Positions 23,415-33,989 of a stretch of 49,037 bases of DNA are shown here, piece by piece. The notes under the pieces are model-generated. The model did no database searches and was not told the origin of the DNA. It was given only the letters and a program-made list of their open reading frames with translations. The position numbers and the translations under genes are program-made. This DNA is from Candidatus Amulumruptor caecigallinarius (GTDB lineage Bacteria; Bacteroidota; Bacteroidia; Bacteroidales; Muribaculaceae). Position 1 is the first letter of the stretch. The number at the start of each line of letters is the position of its first letter. Location: positions 1-49,037 of the forward strand of contig JAMPDQ010000010.1 of assembly GCA_023665575.1 (NCBI GenBank). Direction: 5' to 3'.

Positions 23415-23657
23415 ATGGAAACTCCTTTATTAACATGGCTATTGATTATTGCCGTTATTGCGGCAATATTTGTCATGGATGCTGTCGGCTTTTTACGTAA
23501 AAATAGAAATCATACTGCAAGCCGTAAGCATCATCACCTGAAACACAGTCAGCATATTATTGGGATGGGGTCGGAGAAAGAGATGTTTTATGTTCCGGGC
23601 GACTCTATGCCGGTAAATGTTGATGATTATGATAAGAAAAAATGCGACGGAATTTGA
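23415..23657 (+). CDS. Small membrane protein with His-rich segment
   Basis: An 80-residue protein with one N-terminal membrane helix (about 6-27) and then a basic, histidine-rich stretch RKHHHLKHSQHI. An acidic tail VDDYDKKKCDG follows. I recognise no family. Its last 41 nt overlap the start of the ThrE-type gene in another frame, which suggests translational coupling and argues that it is real. The histidines could bind a metal, but that is a guess. An in-frame GTG lies one codon upstream. Confidence 0.5.
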   Translation: METPLLTWLLIIAVIAAIFVMDAVGFLRKNRNHTASRKHHHLKHSQHIIGMGSEKEMFYVPGDSMPVNVDDYDKKKCDGI

Positions 23658-24429
23658 TTGCAACTCTCCCGGTGTAAAAAATGTGTGCATATTCCTTGCT
23701 GATTACAGTGCGTTTCTTTTTGCTTCGGGAGCAACTTGCATTCGTGTGAACAAGAATGTGGAGCGAATTGCAAACGCATATTGCATGAAAGCGGAGATGA
23801 CCATCATGCCGCGACATATTCATATGGCTGTCAAAGATGAATGCAACGGAGAAATAGTCACCTCCATAACAAGAGTGTGCGACACAGGTATAAATTTTCG
23901 TATCAACACGGAACTCAGCAGGCTTAGTTGGGCAATTGCCGATTCAAAAATATGCTTCGATAATGCCATAATGAGAATGTATGAGGTGGTGAAAGTGCAG
24001 CAGCAAAATAAATTTTTGCTGCTTATGCTTGTCACACTCGCAAATGCTTCATTCTGCCGTCTCTTCGGTGGTGATGCGATAGCCATGGCAATTGTTGCAT
24101 TGGCTACATTCGCGGGTTTCCATGTGAAACAGCTGATGACTTCAAGAAAAATAGACACACGCATCATCTTCATTGTGTGCTCCTTCGTATCATCGGTGCT
24201 GGGAGCCACAGGCATGCTTTTCTCCATGGGCAACACTCCCGACATTGCCATTGCCACAAGCGTATTATATCTTGTGCCCGGCATTCCTTTTCTCAATTCA
24301 TTCAGCGACTTGCTTTACAAGAATTATCTCTGTGCGTTCAGCCGCTTCGCTGATGCAGTGGTGCTGACATGTTGCCTTTCGTTGGGGCTTTGTCTCGGAT
24401 TGTCACTCATGAAGGTGGGAATTTTTTAG
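23617..24429 (+). CDS. Threonine/serine exporter, ThrE N-terminal subunit
   Basis: A 270-residue protein with the two-part ThrE_1 (DUF1212) layout. A soluble N-terminal domain (CIFLADYSAFLFASGATCIR, TRVCDTGINFRINTELSRL) is followed by five membrane helices from about residue 133. Together with the next gene, which supplies the ThrE_2 half, it forms a split amino-acid exporter in the inner membrane. Several ATG codons cluster at 23617, 23623 and 23629, so the exact start is uncertain. The 5' end overlaps the small upstream gene. Confidence 0.88.
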   Translation: MLMIMIRKNATEFDCNSPGVKNVCIFLADYSAFLFASGATCIRVNKNVERIANAYCMKAEMTIMPRHIHMAVKDECNGEIVTSITRVCDTGINFRINTELSRLSWAIADSKICFDNAIMRMYEVVKVQQQNKFLLLMLVTLANASFCRLFGGDAIAMAIVALATFAGFHVKQLMTSRKIDTRIIFIVCSFVSSVLGATGMLFSMGNTPDIAIATSVLYLVPGIPFLNSFSDLLYKNYLCAFSRFADAVVLTCCLSLGLCLGLSLMKVGIF

Positions 24430-24448
24430 CATTTTAAAATGACATGTC

Positions 24449-24928
24449 ATGATTTTCCAGATATTACAGGATGCGATTTTTGCGGCAGTTGCCGCAGTGG
24501 GGTTTGCAGCAATCAGCAGACCGCCGCAACGTGCATATCTGTATTGCGCGCTGATCGCGGCTGCCGGACATTCCTTCAGATTCCTGCTCATGAGTGGAGC
24601 AGTTGGTATGCATATCATCATAGCCACGCTTATGGCCTCATTTCTGATTGGTATCTTGGCTGTGTTGTTGTCATCCATATCAAGAATACCGGCGGAAACA
24701 TATCTGTTTCCCTCACTGCTTCCCATGATTCCGGGAATATATGCCTACAAAACATTTGCCGGCCTAGCGCTGTGCATATTCTCCAATGGCCAGGATGCTT
24801 TCATTCATAATTTCTATCTTTTTGGATATAATGCCATAACATGCGGTTGCATATTGCTGTGCATGGTCACGGGCGCGGTGCTCCCTATATTTATGCTGAA
24901 GCGAATATCCTTCCAAGCCACAAGATGA
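24449..24928 (+). CDS. Threonine/serine exporter, ThrE C-terminal subunit
   Basis: A 159-residue integral membrane protein with five predicted helices matching ThrE_2 (DUF3815): ISRPPQRAYLYCALIAAAGH, FLIGILAVLLSSISRIPAET and SLLPMIPGIYAYKT. In single-chain ThrE this half follows the DUF1212 half; here it is a separate gene 19 nt downstream, the usual split form. It is convergent with the UbiA-family gene, with 11 nt between the ends. Confidence 0.88.
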   Translation: MIFQILQDAIFAAVAAVGFAAISRPPQRAYLYCALIAAAGHSFRFLLMSGAVGMHIIIATLMASFLIGILAVLLSSISRIPAETYLFPSLLPMIPGIYAYKTFAGLALCIFSNGQDAFIHNFYLFGYNAITCGCILLCMVTGAVLPIFMLKRISFQATR

Positions 24929-24939
24929 CACATTCTGCA

Positions 24940-25824
24940 TCAGCGATATAATAATATGCCGAAAGTAAAGAGCCAGCATATGATGCATCCATGAATAAAA
25001 TGGTCATGTAGCAGAATTTCTGTGGGGCTGCCGCTGTTATTATGCACCAGGGCAATCTGCAAATAACGAAACATGCCGGCAATTACGAAAATGGAAGTGA
25101 CATATACATATTTACTGCCTATGCGCGTAATGACATCGTCCGACAGTGTATACATGATATAACAAATCACAGTTATTCCAACGAGAAGACCGAGCACAAG
25201 ATTCAGGTATTCCATGTTATAACTCTTGACATTTTTGCGCGTATCGATGCCATCTTCTTCATACATCACAAGGTCGTCTCTTCTTTTGGCAAATGCAAGA
25301 AAAAGAGAGATGAGAAATGTCATCAGCACAATCCATGGAGATAATTCTATTCCGCATGCGATTCCACCGGCAAAAAGCCTCAACACAAAACCTATGGATA
25401 TTACAATCACATCAACAATGGTAATTTGTTTCAATTTGAAACAATAAAGTATGTTTAGTATGAAATAAAATAATATTATGGCAGTTACTTCCGGAGCATT
25501 ATTGGTGAGAAAAGCAGAAATTGACAATGAGGCCGCGGCAAACGCCATGGTAATAGCAATTGCTGCCGGCACGGATATCTCGCCTGAAGCTATCGGGCGT
25601 TTGCATTTGCGCGGGTGCCGGCGATCAGACTCTGCATCGCGAATGTCATTGATGCAATATATGGAACTTGCAATCAGACAGAATGCAATAAAGGCCGGAA
25701 TCCCTTCTCTCCAACATGCAACATTAAAAAGTTGGCCTCCGAACACAATTGGTAGAAACACGAAGATGTTTTTTACCCATTGCTTCACTCTTATCAATCT
25801 GATTACATCGCGCATCATATACAA
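24940..25824 (-). CDS. UbiA-family prenyltransferase, DPPR-synthase-like
   Basis: A 294-residue polytopic membrane enzyme with about eight to nine helices. The first Mg-diphosphate motif is N59-D-I-R-D63-AESD67, and a second, degenerate motif lies in DVIVISIGFVLRLFAGG. WVKNIFVFLPIVFGG near the start is typical of decaprenyl-phosphate phosphoribosyltransferases (DPPR synthase), which move phosphoribose from PRPP to a polyprenyl phosphate. In Bacteroidetes the downstream product is not well defined. A different UbiA activity cannot be excluded. Confidence 0.85.
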   Translation of the reverse strand: MYMMRDVIRLIRVKQWVKNIFVFLPIVFGGQLFNVACWREGIPAFIAFCLIASSIYCINDIRDAESDRRHPRKCKRPIASGEISVPAAIAITMAFAAASLSISAFLTNNAPEVTAIILFYFILNILYCFKLKQITIVDVIVISIGFVLRLFAGGIACGIELSPWIVLMTFLISLFLAFAKRRDDLVMYEEDGIDTRKNVKSYNMEYLNLVLGLLVGITVICYIMYTLSDDVITRIGSKYVYVTSIFVIAGMFRYLQIALVHNNSGSPTEILLHDHFIHGCIICWLFTFGILLYR

Positions 25825-25928: not shown

Positions 25929-26882
25929 TTATTGCAACTTGATATCCTTAATATCAATAAGCTTGTGAATTATTGCAAAAATCGTCAGGCCCGCGGGTGA
26001 GTGTATCTGAAGTTTTGCCGCGATATTACGCCGATATGTCGTTACTGTGTGAATAGAGAGACACATGGCATCTGCTATCTCTTTGTTGGAGAGCCCGCGT
26101 GCAACATGGCGTATTATCTCCTTCTCTCTTTCGCTGACAGAGTGTATAAGCCCGTCGGCGGTAGTTTCGGAATCCTCTTTATTGTTATTATTGAACTGAA
26201 TTTCATCGAGACTCTCCTCATATCTGATTACAGCCGGCACAAACAAATCATTCTCAACCTTGCAGTGTGTCACAAGATCTTTCTGACAGCTGATGATGTC
26301 ATAAAGCACCGAATTCAGCATATAGTTGTCGCGCTGTTGATAATGGCGAATCACAATGTCTTTCAATTCATTGAGTTTGTCGCCCAGATCATCGTGATCG
26401 GCCGAATAATCAGAAATATCAAAATCATCGCTCTTTTTCCCTTCAAGGAGATTGTCTACATATTTGAACACAATATCATTCTCATATTCCATATGTCGGC
26501 GCACCTCCTCCATATAATCATCAAAATATTTCAAGATGAGAAATTGCACATCATTTGTGCCGGTGCAGTTTATTGCCTCTATCAGTTTCTTGCGGATGGA
26601 GGGAAGATTGAAATCGAGAAAATAGGCGTGCGCATTGCGAAGATAATCAACAAGTGAGCGCAGCGACACCTTATATTTTCTGTATCGGTTGTTTCCAATC
26701 ATATTAGCAACGGCAAGAAATGTTTGTTCATCAACATTGTTTGACGCACAAACCTCTGATACTGTTTCGTCTCCGAATCCGAACGGAATTGAAAACCTGC
26801 TTATCACAAACAGTAGGAGGTCATTGTCATCTATTATGTCACGCAGCCTGTCGCTGGCCAAATACTCACTTTTAGTATCCAC
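25929..26882 (-). CDS. LuxR-type regulator with YtfE-like di-iron domain
   Basis: A 317-residue protein in three parts. Residues 11-62 resemble the DUF542/ScdA N-terminal domain, but the usual Cys-Cys of that domain is replaced (ISRFSIPFGFGDETVSEV). Residues 80-225 form a hemerythrin-like four-helix bundle with H85, H130, E134, H163, H206 and E210. E. coli YtfE/RIC, as I recall it, uses H84, H129, E133, H160, H204 and E208, so all six ligands are present at nearly the same spacing. Residues 247-317 are a LuxR-type helix-turn-helix (VSEREKEIIRHVARGLSNKE, SIHTVTTYRRNIAAKL). It is probably a transcription factor sensing iron, oxygen or NO through the di-iron site. It is divergent from the porin operon. 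Confidence 0.9.
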   Translation of the reverse strand: MDTKSEYLASDRLRDIIDDNDLLLFVISRFSIPFGFGDETVSEVCASNNVDEQTFLAVANMIGNNRYRKYKVSLRSLVDYLRNAHAYFLDFNLPSIRKKLIEAINCTGTNDVQFLILKYFDDYMEEVRRHMEYENDIVFKYVDNLLEGKKSDDFDISDYSADHDDLGDKLNELKDIVIRHYQQRDNYMLNSVLYDIISCQKDLVTHCKVENDLFVPAVIRYEESLDEIQFNNNNKEDSETTADGLIHSVSEREKEIIRHVARGLSNKEIADAMCLSIHTVTTYRRNIAAKLQIHSPAGLTIFAIIHKLIDIKDIKLQ

Positions 26883-26922
26883 AATAATAGGTATGTTTTT
26901 AGAATTATCAGCAATTTTAACG

Positions 26923-26951
26923 CAAATTTAGTTATTTTTTTTACTACGCAA
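26923..26951 (-). promoter_or_regulatory. Promoter of the di-iron LuxR regulator
   Basis: On the minus strand TTG (26949-26951), 18 nt, then TAAATTTG (26923-26930), an exact -7 match. The leader to the start codon is about 35 nt. The sequence around the start (GCAATTTTAACGCAAAT on the plus strand) resembles the palindrome at the porin promoter. Confidence 0.75.
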
Positions 26952-27021
26952 TACCTCATAAATAAGATTTCTATGGGAGTGCCGGAGGAAGTGAATCAAA
27001 TAAAATATCTGAAAAGTGGGG

Positions 27022-27071
27022 TTGTGTCGCAGTCGTGGCGGGCATAATTTTGTGATGCGAAAAAATTCGCA
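27022..27071 (+). promoter_or_regulatory. Porin operon promoter with palindromic site
   Basis: TTG (27022-27024), 20 nt, then TAATTTTG (27045-27052), an exact -7 match. A 16-bp palindrome, TGCGAA-AAAA-TTCGCA (27056-27071), covers the expected start of transcription near 27059. A bound regulator there would block initiation. Confidence 0.8.
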
Positions 27072-27105: not shown

Positions 27106-28413
27106 ATGAATATAAGGACTTCAATTCTGATGGCATCCGCTGCGTTGATGCTGCCTGTTGCTTCACTGGCCAACAACAGTGCTTCAGGTGATTCCACTTC
27201 CACGAGCACATATAAGAAATTCATCAACAGACTTTCTGTGGGAGGTTATGGCGAAGTTGCCGTGTCAAGAAATTTCCACAGCAATTCCTATCTGCGTTAT
27301 ATCCGGCCTGAACAATATAAGGATCAGTCTTACGGCACGTTCGACATACCTCACGTTGTAATAAACCTGGGATATGATTTTGGCCATGGCTGGACTATGG
27401 GCACCGAGATTGAGTTCGAGCATGGCGGCACAGAATCTGCCGTTGAATTTGAAAACGAAGAGGGCGGTGAATACGAGCAGGAAGTGGAGCGTGGCGGTGA
27501 AGTGGCTCTTGAGCAATTCTGGCTACAGAAGTCTTTTATGCCCCAACTCAATCTGCGTGCCGGCATGATTGTGGTGCCTGTGGGTGAAACCAACGCCTAT
27601 CATCTCCCTACAGAATTTTTTGGCGTTTATCGTCCCGAGGGCGAAAATACAATTATGCCCTGCACATGGCATGAAATAGGTCTCAGTATTTGGGGACGCG
27701 CAGGAGCCTGGCGTTATGAGGCAATGTTCCTTCCGGGCCTCGACAGCGAACGTTTCGGAAATCAGGGCTGGATTCATGATGGTTCCGCCTCTCCTTACGA
27801 GTTCAAGCTCGCGAATGTATATGCCGGAGCTTTTCGTGTCGACAATTTCTCAGTGCCCGGCCTTCGTCTCTCTCTGTCGGGATATGTCGGCAATAGCTTC
27901 AAAAACACTATGGCGCCTACCGACAATCCGAAAAACGACGGTGTGCACGGCACTGTGCTGATAGGCTCTTTCGGATTTCAATATAAAGGTTATAACTTCC
28001 TTGCCCGTGGACATTTTGACTATGGTCATCTCACAGACTCGCATCATATCACCACCTTTAATATGTCTATGTCAAGCAAATCTCCTTCCAAGCGTCAGAA
28101 AGTCGCTTCCGATGCGCTGGCCACAGGGGTTGAGGTGGGCTATAACTTCTTCGGACTCAGCCAGGACCTTACTGCAAAAAATCAGAAGCTATATCTTTTT
28201 GGAAGATATGACTATTACGATTCTATGTATAAAATGGAGAAAGACACCCGCGATGGTTGGTGTCAGCGGTCACGCTATGCCGTCGGCCTGAATTATTTTC
28301 CAATCAAGGAGATTGTGGTGAAGGCTGAATATTCAATAGGTGTGCTCCATAAGCCTTATAACAACGAGCCCGCCATCTCTTTCGGCATCGCATACGCCGG
28401 ATGGTTTCTCTAA
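27106..28413 (+). CDS. Outer-membrane porin (phosphate-porin-like barrel)
   Basis: A 435-residue protein with signal peptide ending near SLA (residue 22) and then a long run of beta strands with aromatic girdle residues. It closes with the strand ISFGIAYAGWFL, ending in Leu. Segments such as VGGYGEVAVSR, GTEIEFEHGGTE and LRAGMIVVPVGETNAYHLPT resemble the porin O/P-like family. The insertion at about residues 108-130 is very acidic (ENEEGGEYEQEVERGGEV), which could favour cations at the pore; that is inference. It is the first gene of an operon-like series, with 54 nt to the imelysin gene. Confidence 0.8.
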   Translation: MNIRTSILMASAALMLPVASLANNSASGDSTSTSTYKKFINRLSVGGYGEVAVSRNFHSNSYLRYIRPEQYKDQSYGTFDIPHVVINLGYDFGHGWTMGTEIEFEHGGTESAVEFENEEGGEYEQEVERGGEVALEQFWLQKSFMPQLNLRAGMIVVPVGETNAYHLPTEFFGVYRPEGENTIMPCTWHEIGLSIWGRAGAWRYEAMFLPGLDSERFGNQGWIHDGSASPYEFKLANVYAGAFRVDNFSVPGLRLSLSGYVGNSFKNTMAPTDNPKNDGVHGTVLIGSFGFQYKGYNFLARGHFDYGHLTDSHHITTFNMSMSSKSPSKRQKVASDALATGVEVGYNFFGLSQDLTAKNQKLYLFGRYDYYDSMYKMEKDTRDGWCQRSRYAVGLNYFPIKEIVVKAEYSIGVLHKPYNNEPAISFGIAYAGWFL

Positions 28414-28467: not shown

Positions 28468-29628
28468 ATGAAAAAGACATCAATTTATTTTCTCTCTGCT
28501 CTGACCCTCGGCTTGGGATTTACTTCCTGCTCATCAAGCGATGATGGCGGACCGGACGAAACTCTTACAGCAAAAGAGCAGATGCTTAAAGATGCAGCAA
28601 GCGATTATATCAATCTCACCGTGCTTCCTACATATAAGGGAATGGCAGATGCAGCAATCAGCCTTTATGATTATTGCGAAGTGATACAGAATAATCATGC
28701 TAACGGCACATTGACCACTGCTGATATCAAGAATGCTGCAGATGCCTGGAAGGCTTCCCGAAAATATTGGGAGCTTTCTGAAGCATTCCTCTTCGGCCCC
28801 GCAGCCGACCATTACATCGACCCTCATATCGACTCCTGGCCTCTTGACAAGGATGCAATGGATCGCATGCTCGCTGACATCAGAGCCGGAAAGGAATATT
28901 CTCTCGACAATAATTTCGGATATGGCCTCCTCGGTTTCCACTCTATTGAATACATGCTTTTTGAGCTTACCCCTGACGGAAATGCAAGCAATTATCACTC
29001 GCTCAATTACACTCCCGAGGAGCTAACATATCTGCTTCTCGTTGCCGAAGACCTCCGCAATCAATGCGTATGCCTCGAGGCTTGCTGGGCCGGCACTGAA
29101 AATGTGTCTGAAAAGAAGCAGCGTATTCTTGAGGAAAGCGAGCTTGACCTTGGAAAAAACCACGGCTACATGATGATTAATGCCGGAAAAGGCGGATCAA
29201 TCTATAAAACATATCAGGAGGTTGCCGAAGAAATAATCCAGGGTTGCATTGATATCGCCGACGAAGTGGGAAACACTAAAATCGGGCGCCCCTGCACCGG
29301 ATCTTCTCTTGAAGACAGAAATTATATCGAATCTCCATATAGTCTTAACTCAATCGAAGATTTCATCGACAATATCAAGTCAATTCAGAATTCATATTGC
29401 GGTGTCGCCGGTGCGCATGCTTCAATCTCTGATTATGTAAAATCCGTAAATCCCGATCTTGACGCAAAGCTCAAAAATCAAATTAACCAAGCCATCACAG
29501 CTATCGGCGCAATTCGTGAACCTTTTGCAAAAAATGCAAATTCAGCAGAGGCTCGCAATGCGGTGAAAGTTGTTGGCACTGATCTGGTGGAGGTGCTCAA
29601 TGAGGTTTACACTTCGCTTTCAAGATAA
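28468..29628 (+). CDS. Imelysin family lipoprotein (M75-like)
   Basis: A 386-residue lipoprotein with lipobox FTSC (about Cys21) followed by a Ser/Asp-rich surface linker. The family motif GxHxxE is present as G156-F-H158-S-I-E161, within the two-repeat helical fold of imelysin/IrpA/EfeO proteins. These act in iron uptake, with the GxHxxE residues thought to bind metal; no peptidase activity is established. Its place between a porin and a haem oxidoreductase gives it a likely iron or haem role in the envelope. The gap to the next gene is 60 nt. Confidence 0.93.
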   Translation: MKKTSIYFLSALTLGLGFTSCSSSDDGGPDETLTAKEQMLKDAASDYINLTVLPTYKGMADAAISLYDYCEVIQNNHANGTLTTADIKNAADAWKASRKYWELSEAFLFGPAADHYIDPHIDSWPLDKDAMDRMLADIRAGKEYSLDNNFGYGLLGFHSIEYMLFELTPDGNASNYHSLNYTPEELTYLLLVAEDLRNQCVCLEACWAGTENVSEKKQRILEESELDLGKNHGYMMINAGKGGSIYKTYQEVAEEIIQGCIDIADEVGNTKIGRPCTGSSLEDRNYIESPYSLNSIEDFIDNIKSIQNSYCGVAGAHASISDYVKSVNPDLDAKLKNQINQAITAIGAIREPFAKNANSAEARNAVKVVGTDLVEVLNEVYTSLSR

Positions 29629-29688: not shown

Positions 29689-31338
29689 ATGAGAAGAAAG
29701 TCTTATAGTTTAGTTATGTCAATGGTAATCGTCGCGAGCATGGTATCATGCTCCGACGATACTATTACTGACGGACCCGGAGGTGGCACTTCTAACAATG
29801 ATATGCCGGAATGGTATTATGCCGGTGGCGAACTTGGCACATCATATCTTGCTACTGCCAACGCTCTTGAACAGCCCACGCCGGCTGTGGAACAGGCAGG
29901 GCTTTATCAGCAGTTCAAGAACGGCGAGGCTCTCTTTGAGAAGCCCTTTATGTCGAATGCCTCAGGTGTGCGCTCAGGTCTCGGCCCGGCCTACATCCGC
30001 ACCTCGTGCATTCATTGTCATCCCGGATATGGCCACGGCAAGCGTGTTGAAGCCGGTGCGTTCAAAACTGATGAAATCGGCAATGGCTGTTTGCTTGTTG
30101 TTTATAATCCCAACACAGATGCCTATGTTTCATGGCTTGCCGGCATGCCGCAGTCGCATGCCATAGCTCCTTTCAGCGCTCCTGTAGACGAAAGTCAGAT
30201 ACGCGTAAGCTGGCTTAATGAAACTGACGACTGGAACAACACCTTCCCCGATGGCGAAACTTACGAACTCATCTATCCGGAAGTCACTATGCCGGAATCT
30301 GCAGTTTACGCAGTGCGTCAGGGATATGTGATTCCCGAACCCTATGTTGTGAAGCTGGAAAGCACCATCGGCATTTACGGCACCGGCCTGCTTGACGCTA
30401 TTGATGACGCCGACTTGCTCGCGCAATATCGCAAGGAGGAGGCAGACGGTTTCCTTCCCAACGGGCTTAACAATGCCTTTTTTACCGGTGGTGAATGGGG
30501 CAGCATGTATGCAAATTCGCTACAGGGTGATGGCACAAAATATCCGCGCCGCTTCACATATGCGCTTTCCCGCGGTCCGCTTCAGGATGCAGCCGGAGCC
30601 AACGCTATCTGGAACATCACAAATGTGACAAGAAGCGACCGCCGTTATCATTATATGGATGCTGCGGGCACATGGGCAAAATATTCTGCCAAGGATCCTG
30701 CAGTGCAGGCCGGATTTGATGCTTATCTCAACAAAATCGATCCCCGCAAAACGCATCCCGAATGGTGGACCGGCGATATCGAGCAGAGAATCCTTGCATA
30801 TCTTAATTCCAAGAACCTCCCGGCTGAAATGAGTGATGATGAATACACGGACTTGATGATATGGCATCGCGGTCTTGCTGTGCCGGCTGTCCGCGGAGTC
30901 AACGACCCGGATGTAAAGCGCGGCAAAGAACTCTTTGAGGAAATCGGTTGCTCCTATTGCCATCGCCCGTCGTGGACCACCGGCGCGGATGTGATTCGAG
31001 ACCCGGCCAAGTTCTTTAAGGGAAATGAATTGCCAAGATATCCATATCAGAAAATCTGGCCTTACACCGACATGGTGCAGCATAAACTTCACATGACTAA
31101 TGATATCCGTACCGGATGGTGTCGCACCACTCCTCTGTGGGGACGCGGATTGCATCAGCGCGTCACAGGAGCCACAACTGCCGACCGCCTTCATGACTGT
31201 CGTGCAAGAACAGCTCTTGAAGCAATCATGTGGCATGGTGTGTCCTCACAAAGCGATGCGCGTAAATCAGTGGAGGCTTTCAGAAATCTGAAGAAAGCTG
31301 ATCGTGATGCAATCGTTAAATTTGTGGATGCTATTTGA
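29689..31338 (+). CDS. Di-haem c-type oxidoreductase (DUF1111, MauG-like)
   Basis: A 549-residue lipoprotein (lipobox MVSC) with two c-type haem motifs, C107-I-H-C110-H111 and C421-S-Y-C424-H425. The rest matches the DUF1111 di-haem oxidoreductase family distantly related to MauG and bacterial cytochrome c peroxidases (GLGPAYIRTSCIHCHPG, TPLWGRGL, LHDCRARTALEAIMWHGV). A peroxidase or metal-oxidising role is likely, but the substrate is unknown. Because c-type haem needs covalent attachment, the CcsBA gene 83 nt downstream is its natural partner. I chose ATG at 29689 over an upstream in-frame TTG. Confidence 0.93.
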   Translation: MRRKSYSLVMSMVIVASMVSCSDDTITDGPGGGTSNNDMPEWYYAGGELGTSYLATANALEQPTPAVEQAGLYQQFKNGEALFEKPFMSNASGVRSGLGPAYIRTSCIHCHPGYGHGKRVEAGAFKTDEIGNGCLLVVYNPNTDAYVSWLAGMPQSHAIAPFSAPVDESQIRVSWLNETDDWNNTFPDGETYELIYPEVTMPESAVYAVRQGYVIPEPYVVKLESTIGIYGTGLLDAIDDADLLAQYRKEEADGFLPNGLNNAFFTGGEWGSMYANSLQGDGTKYPRRFTYALSRGPLQDAAGANAIWNITNVTRSDRRYHYMDAAGTWAKYSAKDPAVQAGFDAYLNKIDPRKTHPEWWTGDIEQRILAYLNSKNLPAEMSDDEYTDLMIWHRGLAVPAVRGVNDPDVKRGKELFEEIGCSYCHRPSWTTGADVIRDPAKFFKGNELPRYPYQKIWPYTDMVQHKLHMTNDIRTGWCRTTPLWGRGLHQRVTGATTADRLHDCRARTALEAIMWHGVSSQSDARKSVEAFRNLKKADRDAIVKFVDAI

Positions 31339-31359
31339 TAATTGTAAAAAGCGAGCTTA

Positions 31360-31389
31360 GAGGGACGGGATATTTTTCACCCGTCCCTC
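31360..31389 (+). terminator. Hairpin between the di-haem gene and ccsBA
   Basis: A perfect 10-bp GC-rich stem, GAGGGACGGG/CCCGTCCCTC with a 10-nt loop, lies 21 nt past the di-haem gene stop. No T run follows. It may thin transcription into ccsBA or protect the 3' end of the upstream message. Confidence 0.55.
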
Positions 31390-31421
31390 ATCTGTTACCT
31401 ATATTCTCTATAGAGTCTGTT

Positions 31422-33611
31422 ATGAAATTCATATCTTTTGGCGTGCTTGGTGTCATTACGCTCTGCATGATTGCCGCAACCATTGTGGAAAAATTTTATG
31501 GATCATCTGTTGCATCTCTCATCTATGAATCGCCCATTGTCGTTGTGTGTTGGTGTGTTTCTGCAGTGTTGATGATGATGAGTGTGGTTTGTGAAAGAAA
31601 AACAGTGTCTTTTCCCACACTTATGTTGCATGCCTCTTTTTGTGTAATACTTGCCGGAGCAGCAATTACATGGCTTTCAGGCATAAGGGGGCAAATTCGG
31701 TTGCAAGAGGGAGATACACTTGTTTCTGAGTGTGTTTCAGAAGATTCGGGCAAAATGAGCCTGCCGTTTGATGTGGGTGTTCAAAAGGCCGGTATAGACT
31801 ATTATCCCGGCACACGCACAGCGCGCGATTATAAGTCGGACCTGATAATCCGCGATTCCGGAAAAATATTCCGTGGCACAGTGTCGATGAATAATGTGTT
31901 GACTCATAAAGGATATAGATTTTATCAAACATCTATCGGCCGGGGGTATACTGTTCTTACTGTATATCACGATCCTTATGGTATAGGTGTGTCGTACACC
32001 GGATATATTCTTCTGCTCTTGTCAATGATTGGATTCTTTTTCTCAAAAAAGAGTCGTTTCAGAGGGGTGTTGAAAGCGTTGTGTGCAGTGATTGCCATTT
32101 TTGTAATATCTGACAGCACCCGGGCACAAACTGTGAATACAGAATATTCAATGTCACCTATGGTGTTGCAGAAGCCGCTTGCAAAGACATTCGGCAATCT
32201 GCATGTCTATTGGAACAACCGCGTTTGCCCGCTTCAGACAATGGCACGGGAATTCTGTTTGAGTGTGCATGGCTCCGACCACTTCGGAGATTACACTCCC
32301 GAGCAAGTTCTCACCGGATGGCTTTTCTACTATGATTCATGGAAGAATACGAAATTTATTAAAGTAAAAAACAAGGAAATCAGAGATATATTGGGTATAG
32401 AGGGAAAATATGCCTCAATAAAGGACTTTTATGATGCATCCGGCTATAAACTCGACAATGTGTCGCTTTCGGAAAATTCAGCCGCTGATTTGGCGGAGCT
32501 GAATGAAAAAATAGATTTGTTGGCGCAGGTATGCACGGGAGCCGCGTGGAAGATTTTTCCACAGAAGGAAAACGGCCACTATGTGTGGCACTCATGGGTG
32601 GATAAAAATGTGGGCGAAGCGGAACATTATGACAACATTATGGATTTTGCAATGGAGAATGTGGCTTATGATATTGCGCGTGAAAAATTCATTGCGGCCA
32701 ATGATGAAGTAAAGAATATTATAGAATGGCAGGAAAAATTTCGCGATGAGAAAATCTTGCCGTCTGAAATTGAATTCGGAGCCGAGAAAACCCTGAATTC
32801 TTTGCCTTCGATTCTTCTTATGGCAGTTTTGGCTTTTATTGCCGGGATTGCAGGCTTTGTCATGTTTGTGCGAGGCCGGAAGGAGTCGCAGCTTTTCCGC
32901 GGCAAGGGAATGTTGCGGAAGATAATGTCAGCTGCGCTTCCGGTGGTGGAAATTCTGCTGTTTGCATATCTCACATTTGTGTGTGTGTTGCGCTGGATTG
33001 TAGGAGGACATATCCCTCTCAGCAACGGATATGAGACTATGACGGGCATCGCATGGTTTGCTTTGCTCATGACCATAGCTGTGTCCGGCCGGTTTGCAGT
33101 GTTGAAATCCATGTCGGCAATTGTGAGTGGTCTGGCTCTTTGCGTGGCTGTAATGGGGGAGGGGAATCCTGCGGTCACCAAGCTTGTCCCGGTGCTGGCC
33201 TCTCCGCTGCTATCAGTGCACGTGATGCTCGTGATGACAAGTTATTCTATATTTGCAATAATGGCATTAAATTCCATTGTGGCGCTTGCCTCTGACATGA
33301 CAACGCGAAAAAGATTGGCGGATATCTGCGTGTTATTGCTTTATCCTGCCGAATTTTGTCTAATTGCCGGCATTTTCATTGGAGCAATATGGGCTAACAA
33401 TTCCTGGGGACGCTATTGGGGCTGGGATCCGAAAGAAACATGGGCCTTAATCACAATGATAGTGTATTGTCTGCCTATGCATGCTGCCACGTTCAAAGCA
33501 TTGCAGAGGCCTAAATACATGTGTATTTTCTGCATCATAGCGTTTTTCTTCGTTCTTTTTACATATTTTGGTGTGAACTATCTGCTCACGGGTCTCCACT
33601 CATATGCGTAA
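31422..33611 (+). CDS. ccsBA: Cytochrome c synthase CcsBA (ResB-CcsA fusion)
   Basis: A 729-residue system II haem lyase in one chain. The N-terminal ResB/CcsB part has three early membrane helices. A large periplasmic region (about 235-465) follows, then one more helix and a CcsA half with about eight helices. The haem-handling signature W657-ANNSWGRYWGWD669 is intact, with flanking periplasmic histidines H600 and H687 and a membrane histidine H530 in GGHIPLSNGYE. It exports haem and joins it to CxxCH cysteines, here probably of the preceding di-haem protein. I chose ATG at 31422 because earlier in-frame codons fall in the intergenic hairpin. Confidence 0.92.
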   Translation: MKFISFGVLGVITLCMIAATIVEKFYGSSVASLIYESPIVVVCWCVSAVLMMMSVVCERKTVSFPTLMLHASFCVILAGAAITWLSGIRGQIRLQEGDTLVSECVSEDSGKMSLPFDVGVQKAGIDYYPGTRTARDYKSDLIIRDSGKIFRGTVSMNNVLTHKGYRFYQTSIGRGYTVLTVYHDPYGIGVSYTGYILLLLSMIGFFFSKKSRFRGVLKALCAVIAIFVISDSTRAQTVNTEYSMSPMVLQKPLAKTFGNLHVYWNNRVCPLQTMAREFCLSVHGSDHFGDYTPEQVLTGWLFYYDSWKNTKFIKVKNKEIRDILGIEGKYASIKDFYDASGYKLDNVSLSENSAADLAELNEKIDLLAQVCTGAAWKIFPQKENGHYVWHSWVDKNVGEAEHYDNIMDFAMENVAYDIAREKFIAANDEVKNIIEWQEKFRDEKILPSEIEFGAEKTLNSLPSILLMAVLAFIAGIAGFVMFVRGRKESQLFRGKGMLRKIMSAALPVVEILLFAYLTFVCVLRWIVGGHIPLSNGYETMTGIAWFALLMTIAVSGRFAVLKSMSAIVSGLALCVAVMGEGNPAVTKLVPVLASPLLSVHVMLVMTSYSIFAIMALNSIVALASDMTTRKRLADICVLLLYPAEFCLIAGIFIGAIWANNSWGRYWGWDPKETWALITMIVYCLPMHAATFKALQRPKYMCIFCIIAFFFVLFTYFGVNYLLTGLHSYA

Positions 33612-33989
33612 ATTTAGGCTTCTTTTGTGAGATTCGCATATTCAGCCTCCTTCTCTTTAACCTTCATTCAAGAGGAAACAATAAAAGACGGCACCTGTCC
33701 AGGCACCGTCCTTCATAATCACATAATGTGGCTCTACACACTAATCAATTAAGATTTTGACTTTAATCGTGTAAGATGTAAATTATATATATATTCAAGA
33801 ACTTCGTGATTGTTTGATTATTATGTTGCAAAAATAATCCTGCTTGTCTGTCTTTGCAATACTCATAAATGAGTAAAATCAATTCGCAACCTTCAATGAT
33901 GCGCATTGCCACTTTTGCATATGCGGTGGAAAATGATTATTTTTGAGAAAGTTTTTCACACAACGGACTCTAAAACATTTTACACAATT
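33612..33989. other. Gap with hairpin and family II motif
   Basis: No gene is seen. An imperfect hairpin GACGGCACCTGTCCAGGCACCGTC lies at 33688-33711, about 76 nt after ccsBA, without a T run; it may mark the end of the operon. At 33951-33975 AAGTTTTTCACACAACGGACTCTAAAAC is a degenerate family II outer motif just before the DUF4293 gene. No full-consensus promoter was found. Confidence 0.4.

Follow-up and report, generated by a model that had tools for sequence, protein, structure and literature searches.

Which signal does a LuxR-type regulator read when it is fused to a hemerythrin-like domain of the kind found in RIC proteins, and which genes would it control? The window analysed here, a stretch of 49,037 nucleotides from Candidatus Amulumruptor caecigallinarius, holds one such gene. 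The reading favoured below, which is probably correct, is that it encodes a one-piece CdhR-type activator that turns iron uptake on when its di-iron site empties. The gene and its parts are as follows.

25929..26882, minus strand: fused regulator gene, 317 aa, with a RIC-like N-terminal domain, a hemerythrin-like bundle and a LuxR/GerE DNA-binding domain
26697..26849, minus strand: DUF542-like N-terminal region, residues 12-62, with G35-F36 in place of the Cys pair and an invariant C45
26187..26663, minus strand: hemerythrin/RIC-like bundle, residues 74-232, with H85, H130, E134, H163, H206 and E210
25968..26156, minus strand: LuxR/GerE helix-turn-helix, residues 243-305

The window protein has the four-helix bundle that marks RIC-like proteins, and its last bundle helix (residues 187-236) extends toward the DNA-binding domain. 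An added LuxR domain had been proposed in the preliminary description and was recovered as a domain match at residues 243-305, C-terminal to the bundle. The score against the RIC family model TIGR03652 was 50.4 bits, under the cut-off of 204.7. No Pfam receiver domain was found in the fused protein at E-values up to 1, and the receiver expected of a response regulator is thus missing from it.

Conservation was followed in a set of 81 proteins, comprising the window protein and the best 80 of at least 531 confirmed relatives, these 80 being taken from named contigs. The homologue records are mostly Bacteroidales MAGs; a few are labelled Lachnospiraceae or Bacilli, perhaps mistakenly. The six residues previously put forward as di-iron ligands, four His and two Glu, are present at RIC-type positions and are invariant in this set (81/81). 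Chance likeness of the ligands was ruled out by this conservation together with that in the split form described below (10/10). Classical hemerythrins, which carry or sense O2, use five His with Glu and Asp bridges. The near-exact correspondence with Escherichia coli YtfE that had been claimed held for the most part: five of the six positions pair with YtfE, but H85, which we take to be the partner of YtfE H84, lies in the alignment one residue off the His of Staphylococcus aureus ScdA, a shift that counts against the favoured explanation. The counterpart of YtfE E125 is kept as E126, while the position of YtfE E159 (residue 162) is not conserved in the fused proteins. R29, F30, G35, F36, C45 and E126 are also invariant in the best 80 of at least 531 relatives plus the window (81/81). 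The repair-type Cys pair had been described as lost, and G35-F36 indeed occupies its place in all 81, which rules out a repair enzyme with an intact pair. Descent from a working repair enzyme, as had been suggested, is a conjecture. The invariant C45 (window positions 26748-26750) lies outside the RIC Cys pair and has a counterpart in the aligned split hemerythrin proteins.

CdhR of Porphyromonas gingivalis had been suggested as a useful comparator. The comparison is apt, since hemerythrin and LuxR domains are coupled in both, but in P. gingivalis the hemerythrin protein and CdhR are reported as separate genes of one operon (PMC10434189). Split pairs described in the available text of that paper are P. 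gingivalis PG1236-37 (hemerythrin PG1236, CdhR PG1237) and Bacteroides thetaiotaomicron BT0519-520, and the fused form is already named in Prevotella intermedia as PIN17_RS10465 (PMC10434189). The hemerythrin-LuxR architecture is therefore not new, being in print there. The link of the window protein to P. gingivalis CdhR rests on that paper (PMC10434189), the named proteins being likened by description. Under low iron, BT0519-520 is reported to rise 16- to 20-fold and PG1236-38 2- to 7-fold (PMC10434189), and CdhR is a reported activator that controls the hmu genes (PMC10101095). The available text of PMC10434189 contains no operator, spacing, feoAB link or ligand analysis.

Among 61 related genomes, a full-length fused match was found in 19, and one more (G003) is cut by a contig end. 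In other related genomes the gene for a hemerythrin protein of about 230 aa stands immediately before that for a LuxR protein of some 200 aa, and G029 and G032 contain both the fused and the split form. The split hemerythrin proteins keep the six ligand residues (10/10), and the LuxR domains of the aligned partners are 55-65% identical to the fused one (10/10); weaker LuxR-only matches go down to about 31% among the matches listed. The split LuxR partners examined carry some 130 N-terminal residues that are absent from the fused form. These look receiver-like by eye, but Pfam gave no receiver in the five scanned (5/5), and none is claimed for that reason. A second, more diverged hemerythrin and LuxR gene pair was seen in G004 (C10), G016 (C37), G029 (C4) and others.

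Trees were built from 46 fused and 20 split rows, and again without L068, L069, L070, L112 and L002. The fused label requires two changes, and a single origin was recovered in 0% of 200 bootstrap trees, yet the AU test does not reject a single fusion origin (p 0.22), so that one origin may still hold. The two changes arise because the fused protein L019 of G054 nests among split proteins on a long branch. This protein (L019/L049), from another family, may represent a second independent fusion, and its gene also adjoins a porin-imelysin-DHOR-Ccs locus.

In the window, the regulator gene faces away from a locus of the same kind.

27106..28413, plus strand: porin-like outer-membrane protein at the head of the divergent locus, with a sub-threshold Pfam beta-barrel match only
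28468..29628, plus strand: imelysin (Peptidase_M75), the sole match in the genome
29683..31338, plus strand: di-haem oxidoreductase (DHOR) with two CxxCH motifs
31335..33611, plus strand: ResB/CcsA-type cytochrome c assembly protein

The genome's one hemerythrin match and one imelysin match lie in adjoining divergent units. On the other side of the regulator gene are two genes for a ThrE-type threonine/serine exporter (23617-24928) and a UbiA-family gene (24940-25824) that scores above the cut-offs of two decaprenyl-phosphate phosphoribosyltransferase models. Decaprenyl-phosphate phosphoribosyltransferase is known mainly from actinobacteria.

Among 80 named fused loci, the best 80 of at least 531, porin/imelysin/DHOR/Ccs genes were found beside 21, hmu genes (HmuY, CobN and ExbB types) beside eight and a DUF4374/Xus-like locus beside two, while eight have a receptor or calycin-like gene only; the neighbour classes were picked after recurring neighbours had been seen, and representatives were named by Pfam. 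The other 41 of these best 80 have no neighbour of the searched classes, which counts against the favoured explanation. A cluster-based count over the best 80 of at least 531 loci gave 22 porin-type and eight hmu loci. The orientation of the porin-imelysin-DHOR-Ccs locus to the regulator varies and can be divergent, convergent or tandem. A locus of the same kind in B. thetaiotaomicron, BT2473-82, is reported to rise 63- to 324-fold in low iron (PMC10434189).

A de novo search of 24 non-redundant intergenic regions, the window included, returned a 20-bp palindrome, AATACt.AaattT.aGTATT, with a motif score of 276.7 compared with 149.5 ± 5.2 (maximum 161.2) in 15 shuffled sets; 80 search starts were used for the real set and 30 for the shuffles. 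An earlier run at widths 16-20 had returned the promoter -7 box itself, which was masked in the second run. L105, L137, L128 and two regions shorter than 100 bases were left out before motif building. In 21 of the 24 regions, the window being outside these 21, the distance between the start of the site and the TTTG of the -7 box is exactly 45 bp, and the predicted site would thus be centred near -42. A site at this fixed spacing precedes the fused gene at 56 of 79 loci (the 80 named fused loci, best of at least 531, minus one with too little upstream DNA), compared with 12 among 579 further genes from these loci, and reversed sequence upstream of the same fused genes gave none (0/79). The 23 of these 79 without a site at the exact spacing count against the favoured explanation. 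Fused loci outside the motif-building set, also from the best 80 of at least 531, carry the site in 31 of 51 cases. Split hemerythrin and LuxR pairs, members of other families included, have it in 14 of 20, and the fused genes of the related-genome set in 10 of 20, the 10 of 20 that lack it at the exact spacing being a further point against that explanation. Within the 56 fused promoters, TA at +41 is found in 53 and G at +20, part of TTG at the -33 position, in 39. Operator and spacing are thus shared by the fused and split families, and the window's own site has a spacing of 43. No CdhR operator motif was found in the literature covered, two primary CdhR papers being outside its scope, and a published site is possible.

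The sites of the window itself are these.

26950..26969, minus strand: AATCTTATTTATGAGGTATT, predicted operator in the promoter of the regulator gene itself, scoring 9.2 bits, with the -7 TTTG at 26926-26923 and an offset of 43 (usual 45)
27004..27023, plus strand: AATATCTGAAAAGTGGGGTT, predicted operator in the promoter of the divergent porin gene, scoring 4.0 bits, with the -7 TTTG at 27049-27052 and an offset of 45
33858..33877, minus strand: best-scoring operator match in the window at 11.9 bits; a TTTG on the minus strand lies at offset 45
33676..33824, minus strand: putative small transcript, speculative, starting from the promoter of the preceding site and running up to a 16-bp terminator-like hairpin

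The two promoter sites are weak, and this too stands against the favoured explanation; a further match, of 10.8 bits, runs across the start codon at 26876-26895 and lacks the promoter spacing. The site at 33858-33877 faces left, and the strong 16-bp hairpin and T-run downstream would end a putative transcript of about 145 nt, possibly an iron-starvation small RNA (33676-33877). An Rfam search of 33600-33910 gave two matches, neither of which came near its gathering score, and blastn of the region found no full-length counterpart among the loci compared. Searched for by itself, the palindrome is present twice in the genome, at 33858-33877 and upstream of feoAB, compared with three places for the reversed control. 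The count is therefore not above chance, which weighs against the favoured explanation; the positions of the two, near the putative small transcript and feoAB, are suggestive.

The feoAB genes were outside the motif set. A site of at least 10 bits was found in 28 of 49 feoAB upstream regions compared with 16 of 571 controls, the control genes here and in the fused-gene count being drawn from the named fused loci and not from the genomes of the feoAB genes. There were 56 feoAB matches in all, of which 50 were taken for the exact-spacing count and 49 for the 10-bit count. The feoAB of this genome (L298) has an 11.1-bit site, and the feoAB palindrome reads by eye approximately TATACCTAnnnnTAGGTATT. 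At the exact 45-bp spacing and a threshold of at least 4 bits, sites precede 10 of 50 feoAB genes and 13 of 30 porin homologues, which counts against the favoured explanation. The feoAB sites take TAnnTTTG offsets of 45, 60/61, 70/71, 82/83 or 92 in 26 of 29 cases, and those beyond 60 are spaced by about one helical turn; the offset classes were named after the data had been seen and the promoters are related, so the offset-phase p-values are too good, and the phase vector over distinct offsets alone is weaker (0.47). Such helical-turn offsets would fit an activator. In G038, G044, G057 and G059 the split pair is a same-strand neighbour of feoAB, at a distance of about 1.3 kb or less.

A scan for site plus promoter gave 85 matches in 41 of the 61 genomes, compared with 15 for the reversed pattern. 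Eight regulator promoters, three contig ends, 16 from other families and one from the window were left out, and 57 downstream regions were taken. Twenty-five of these start with a porin-locus, receptor, FeoAB or PepSY/XusC-type gene: a TonB/outer-membrane receptor is first in 14, a porin gene in five (with the regulator on another contig), FeoAB in three and a PepSY/XusC-type gene in three. Three more are amylase-like, three are unfamiliar recurring genes and the other 26 are mixed or show no clear gene. The amylase-like genes behind operator and promoter (L191, L216 and L231; alpha-amylase-like, with a Pfam match for L191) would be unexpected for an iron regulator. The recurring genes (L188, L196 and L226) encode related proteins of about 580-610 aa that start right after the operator and promoter match in three genomes; L188 has no Pfam match. 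G014 has a 23.9-bit feoAB site, yet no regulator match was found in that genome (81% complete), and G012 (86% complete) and G018 have sites with only weak regulator matches. Fur-family proteins are found in 58 of the 61 genomes, this one included, and iron control may for that reason be shared between the regulator and Fur.

Oxygen, NO and iron had each been offered as the signal. Iron fits best because of the neighbouring genes, the predicted operator sites and the low-iron induction reported for the split relatives (PMC10434189); oxygen or NO is kept as a rival. Predicted sites before iron and heme uptake genes suggest that iron scavenging is switched on when iron runs out. The conservation of the ligands, the loss of the Cys pair, the predicted operator, its spacing and its targets were computed; the binding and occupancy of iron, the activity of the apo form and the movement of the last helix are what we infer from them. 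Under iron-replete conditions, two irons in the four-His/two-Glu site of the bundle would hold the LuxR domain in an inactive state. Once iron became scarce the site would empty, and the last bundle helix, where H206 and E210 are found and which continues into the linker, would move. The apo protein could then bind the palindrome and activate transcription from about -42, adjoining the -33 box, or from further upstream. Genes induced in this way would be that of the regulator itself, those of the divergent porin-imelysin-diheme oxidoreductase-Ccs locus and feoAB, joined in relatives by the hmu and Xus-like loci. The site positions would fit an activator.

The strongest rival to this apo-active activator holds that the di-iron site stays metal-loaded and that O2 or NO acting there alters DNA binding, the iron genes simply following a stress-driven demand for iron. 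In its favour, the ligands match those of RIC proteins, and RIC genes are reported to respond to NO and to related kinds of stress (PMC9268430). Further bacterial sensors built on a hemerythrin domain have been described as detecting oxygen and redox state (PMC9388753), and the YtfE E125 counterpart is retained. The YtfE E159 position is not, however, and the predicted targets that can be named are mostly iron and heme uptake genes; iron depletion, moreover, is what is reported to induce the split relatives (PMC10434189). A sensor of O2 or NO is accordingly considered unlikely, though it is the first alternative to be kept in mind.

Next to it stands a Fur-like repressor whose iron-loaded form would sit over the -33 box and block the promoter until low iron frees it. 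Release would explain the low-iron induction equally well, and the offset-45 site does overlap the TTG at -33, with the +20 G in 39 of 56 fused promoters (best 80 of at least 531) and, at feoAB, in eight of nine offset-45 sites compared with one of 19 others. At feoAB, however, many sites stand well upstream, at offsets of 60-92 that advance by roughly one helical turn, and a repressor bound there would leave RNA polymerase unobstructed. Activation of hmu by CdhR has also been reported (PMC10101095). We judge repression to be rather improbable.

Heme itself might be the ligand, bound by the invariant Cys45 or by a His, with the hemerythrin fold as scaffold only. The invariance of C45 in the best 80 of at least 531 relatives plus the window (81/81), the hmu neighbours at eight of the best 80 of at least 531 loci and the control of hmu genes by CdhR (PMC10101095) speak for this, but the six di-iron ligand residues are invariant as well and a ferrous iron system, feoAB, is a main predicted target, which makes a heme sensor quite unlikely. 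The last alternative is that the protein continues to repair iron centres and that its DNA-binding domain serves only to position or regulate it. This view has the RIC fold and ligands in its favour but hardly merits credence given the missing Cys pair (81/81; window and best 80 of at least 531), the predicted operator at its own gene and the iron-uptake targets.

To return to the apo-active activator, it is conceivable, and offered here tentatively, that in Bacteroidales hemerythrin-type iron sensing is wired directly to DNA through such a regulator, fused or as a pair, acting beside Fur or partly in its place. Under that reading the iron-starvation regulon would take in feoAB, genes for heme and siderophore uptake, the porin-imelysin-DHOR-Ccs locus and, in this genome, perhaps a small RNA as well. 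Through the fusion, hemerythrin and DNA-binding parts are joined in one protein, and the ligand pattern points to the putative metal site, while the predicted operator and promoter spacing give a testable target list. What is added here to the published architecture is the ligand and Cys analysis over 81 proteins (window and best 80 of at least 531), the predicted operator and the target list.

Compared with known systems, YtfE and ScdA share the fold and the di-iron ligand pattern, with the H85 shift in the ScdA alignment; the window protein differs in its missing Cys pair, its LuxR domain, its regulatory context and a score far below the RIC family cut-off. CdhR, BT0519-0520 and PIN17_RS10465 likewise combine a hemerythrin domain with a DNA-binding regulator, with low-iron induction reported for the split genes and fusion for the P. 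intermedia form (PMC10434189). Bhr-DGC, DcrH and PG_0686, as reported, also use a hemerythrin-type domain as the sensing part, but joined to cyclase or sensory-box modules and discussed in connection with O2 or redox, whereas here a DNA-binding domain and iron genes are involved (PMC10101095). The available text of a review of such proteins makes no mention of LuxR, helix-turn-helix, transcription factor or DNA-binding (PMC9388753). Fur and DtxR exert the same iron-dependent control of uptake genes, but their fold is unrelated to the window protein; this genome has one Fur-family match, which at 29.4 bits exceeds the cut-off, whereas the family of DtxR-type C-terminal domains gave none there. 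In animals FBXL5 and in plants the BRUTUS-type E3 ligases sense iron by hemerythrin domains. These proteins, likened here by description, are ubiquitin ligases and not transcription factors, and the regulator of the window, if it acts as proposed, would bring hemerythrin-type iron sensing into bacterial transcription control.
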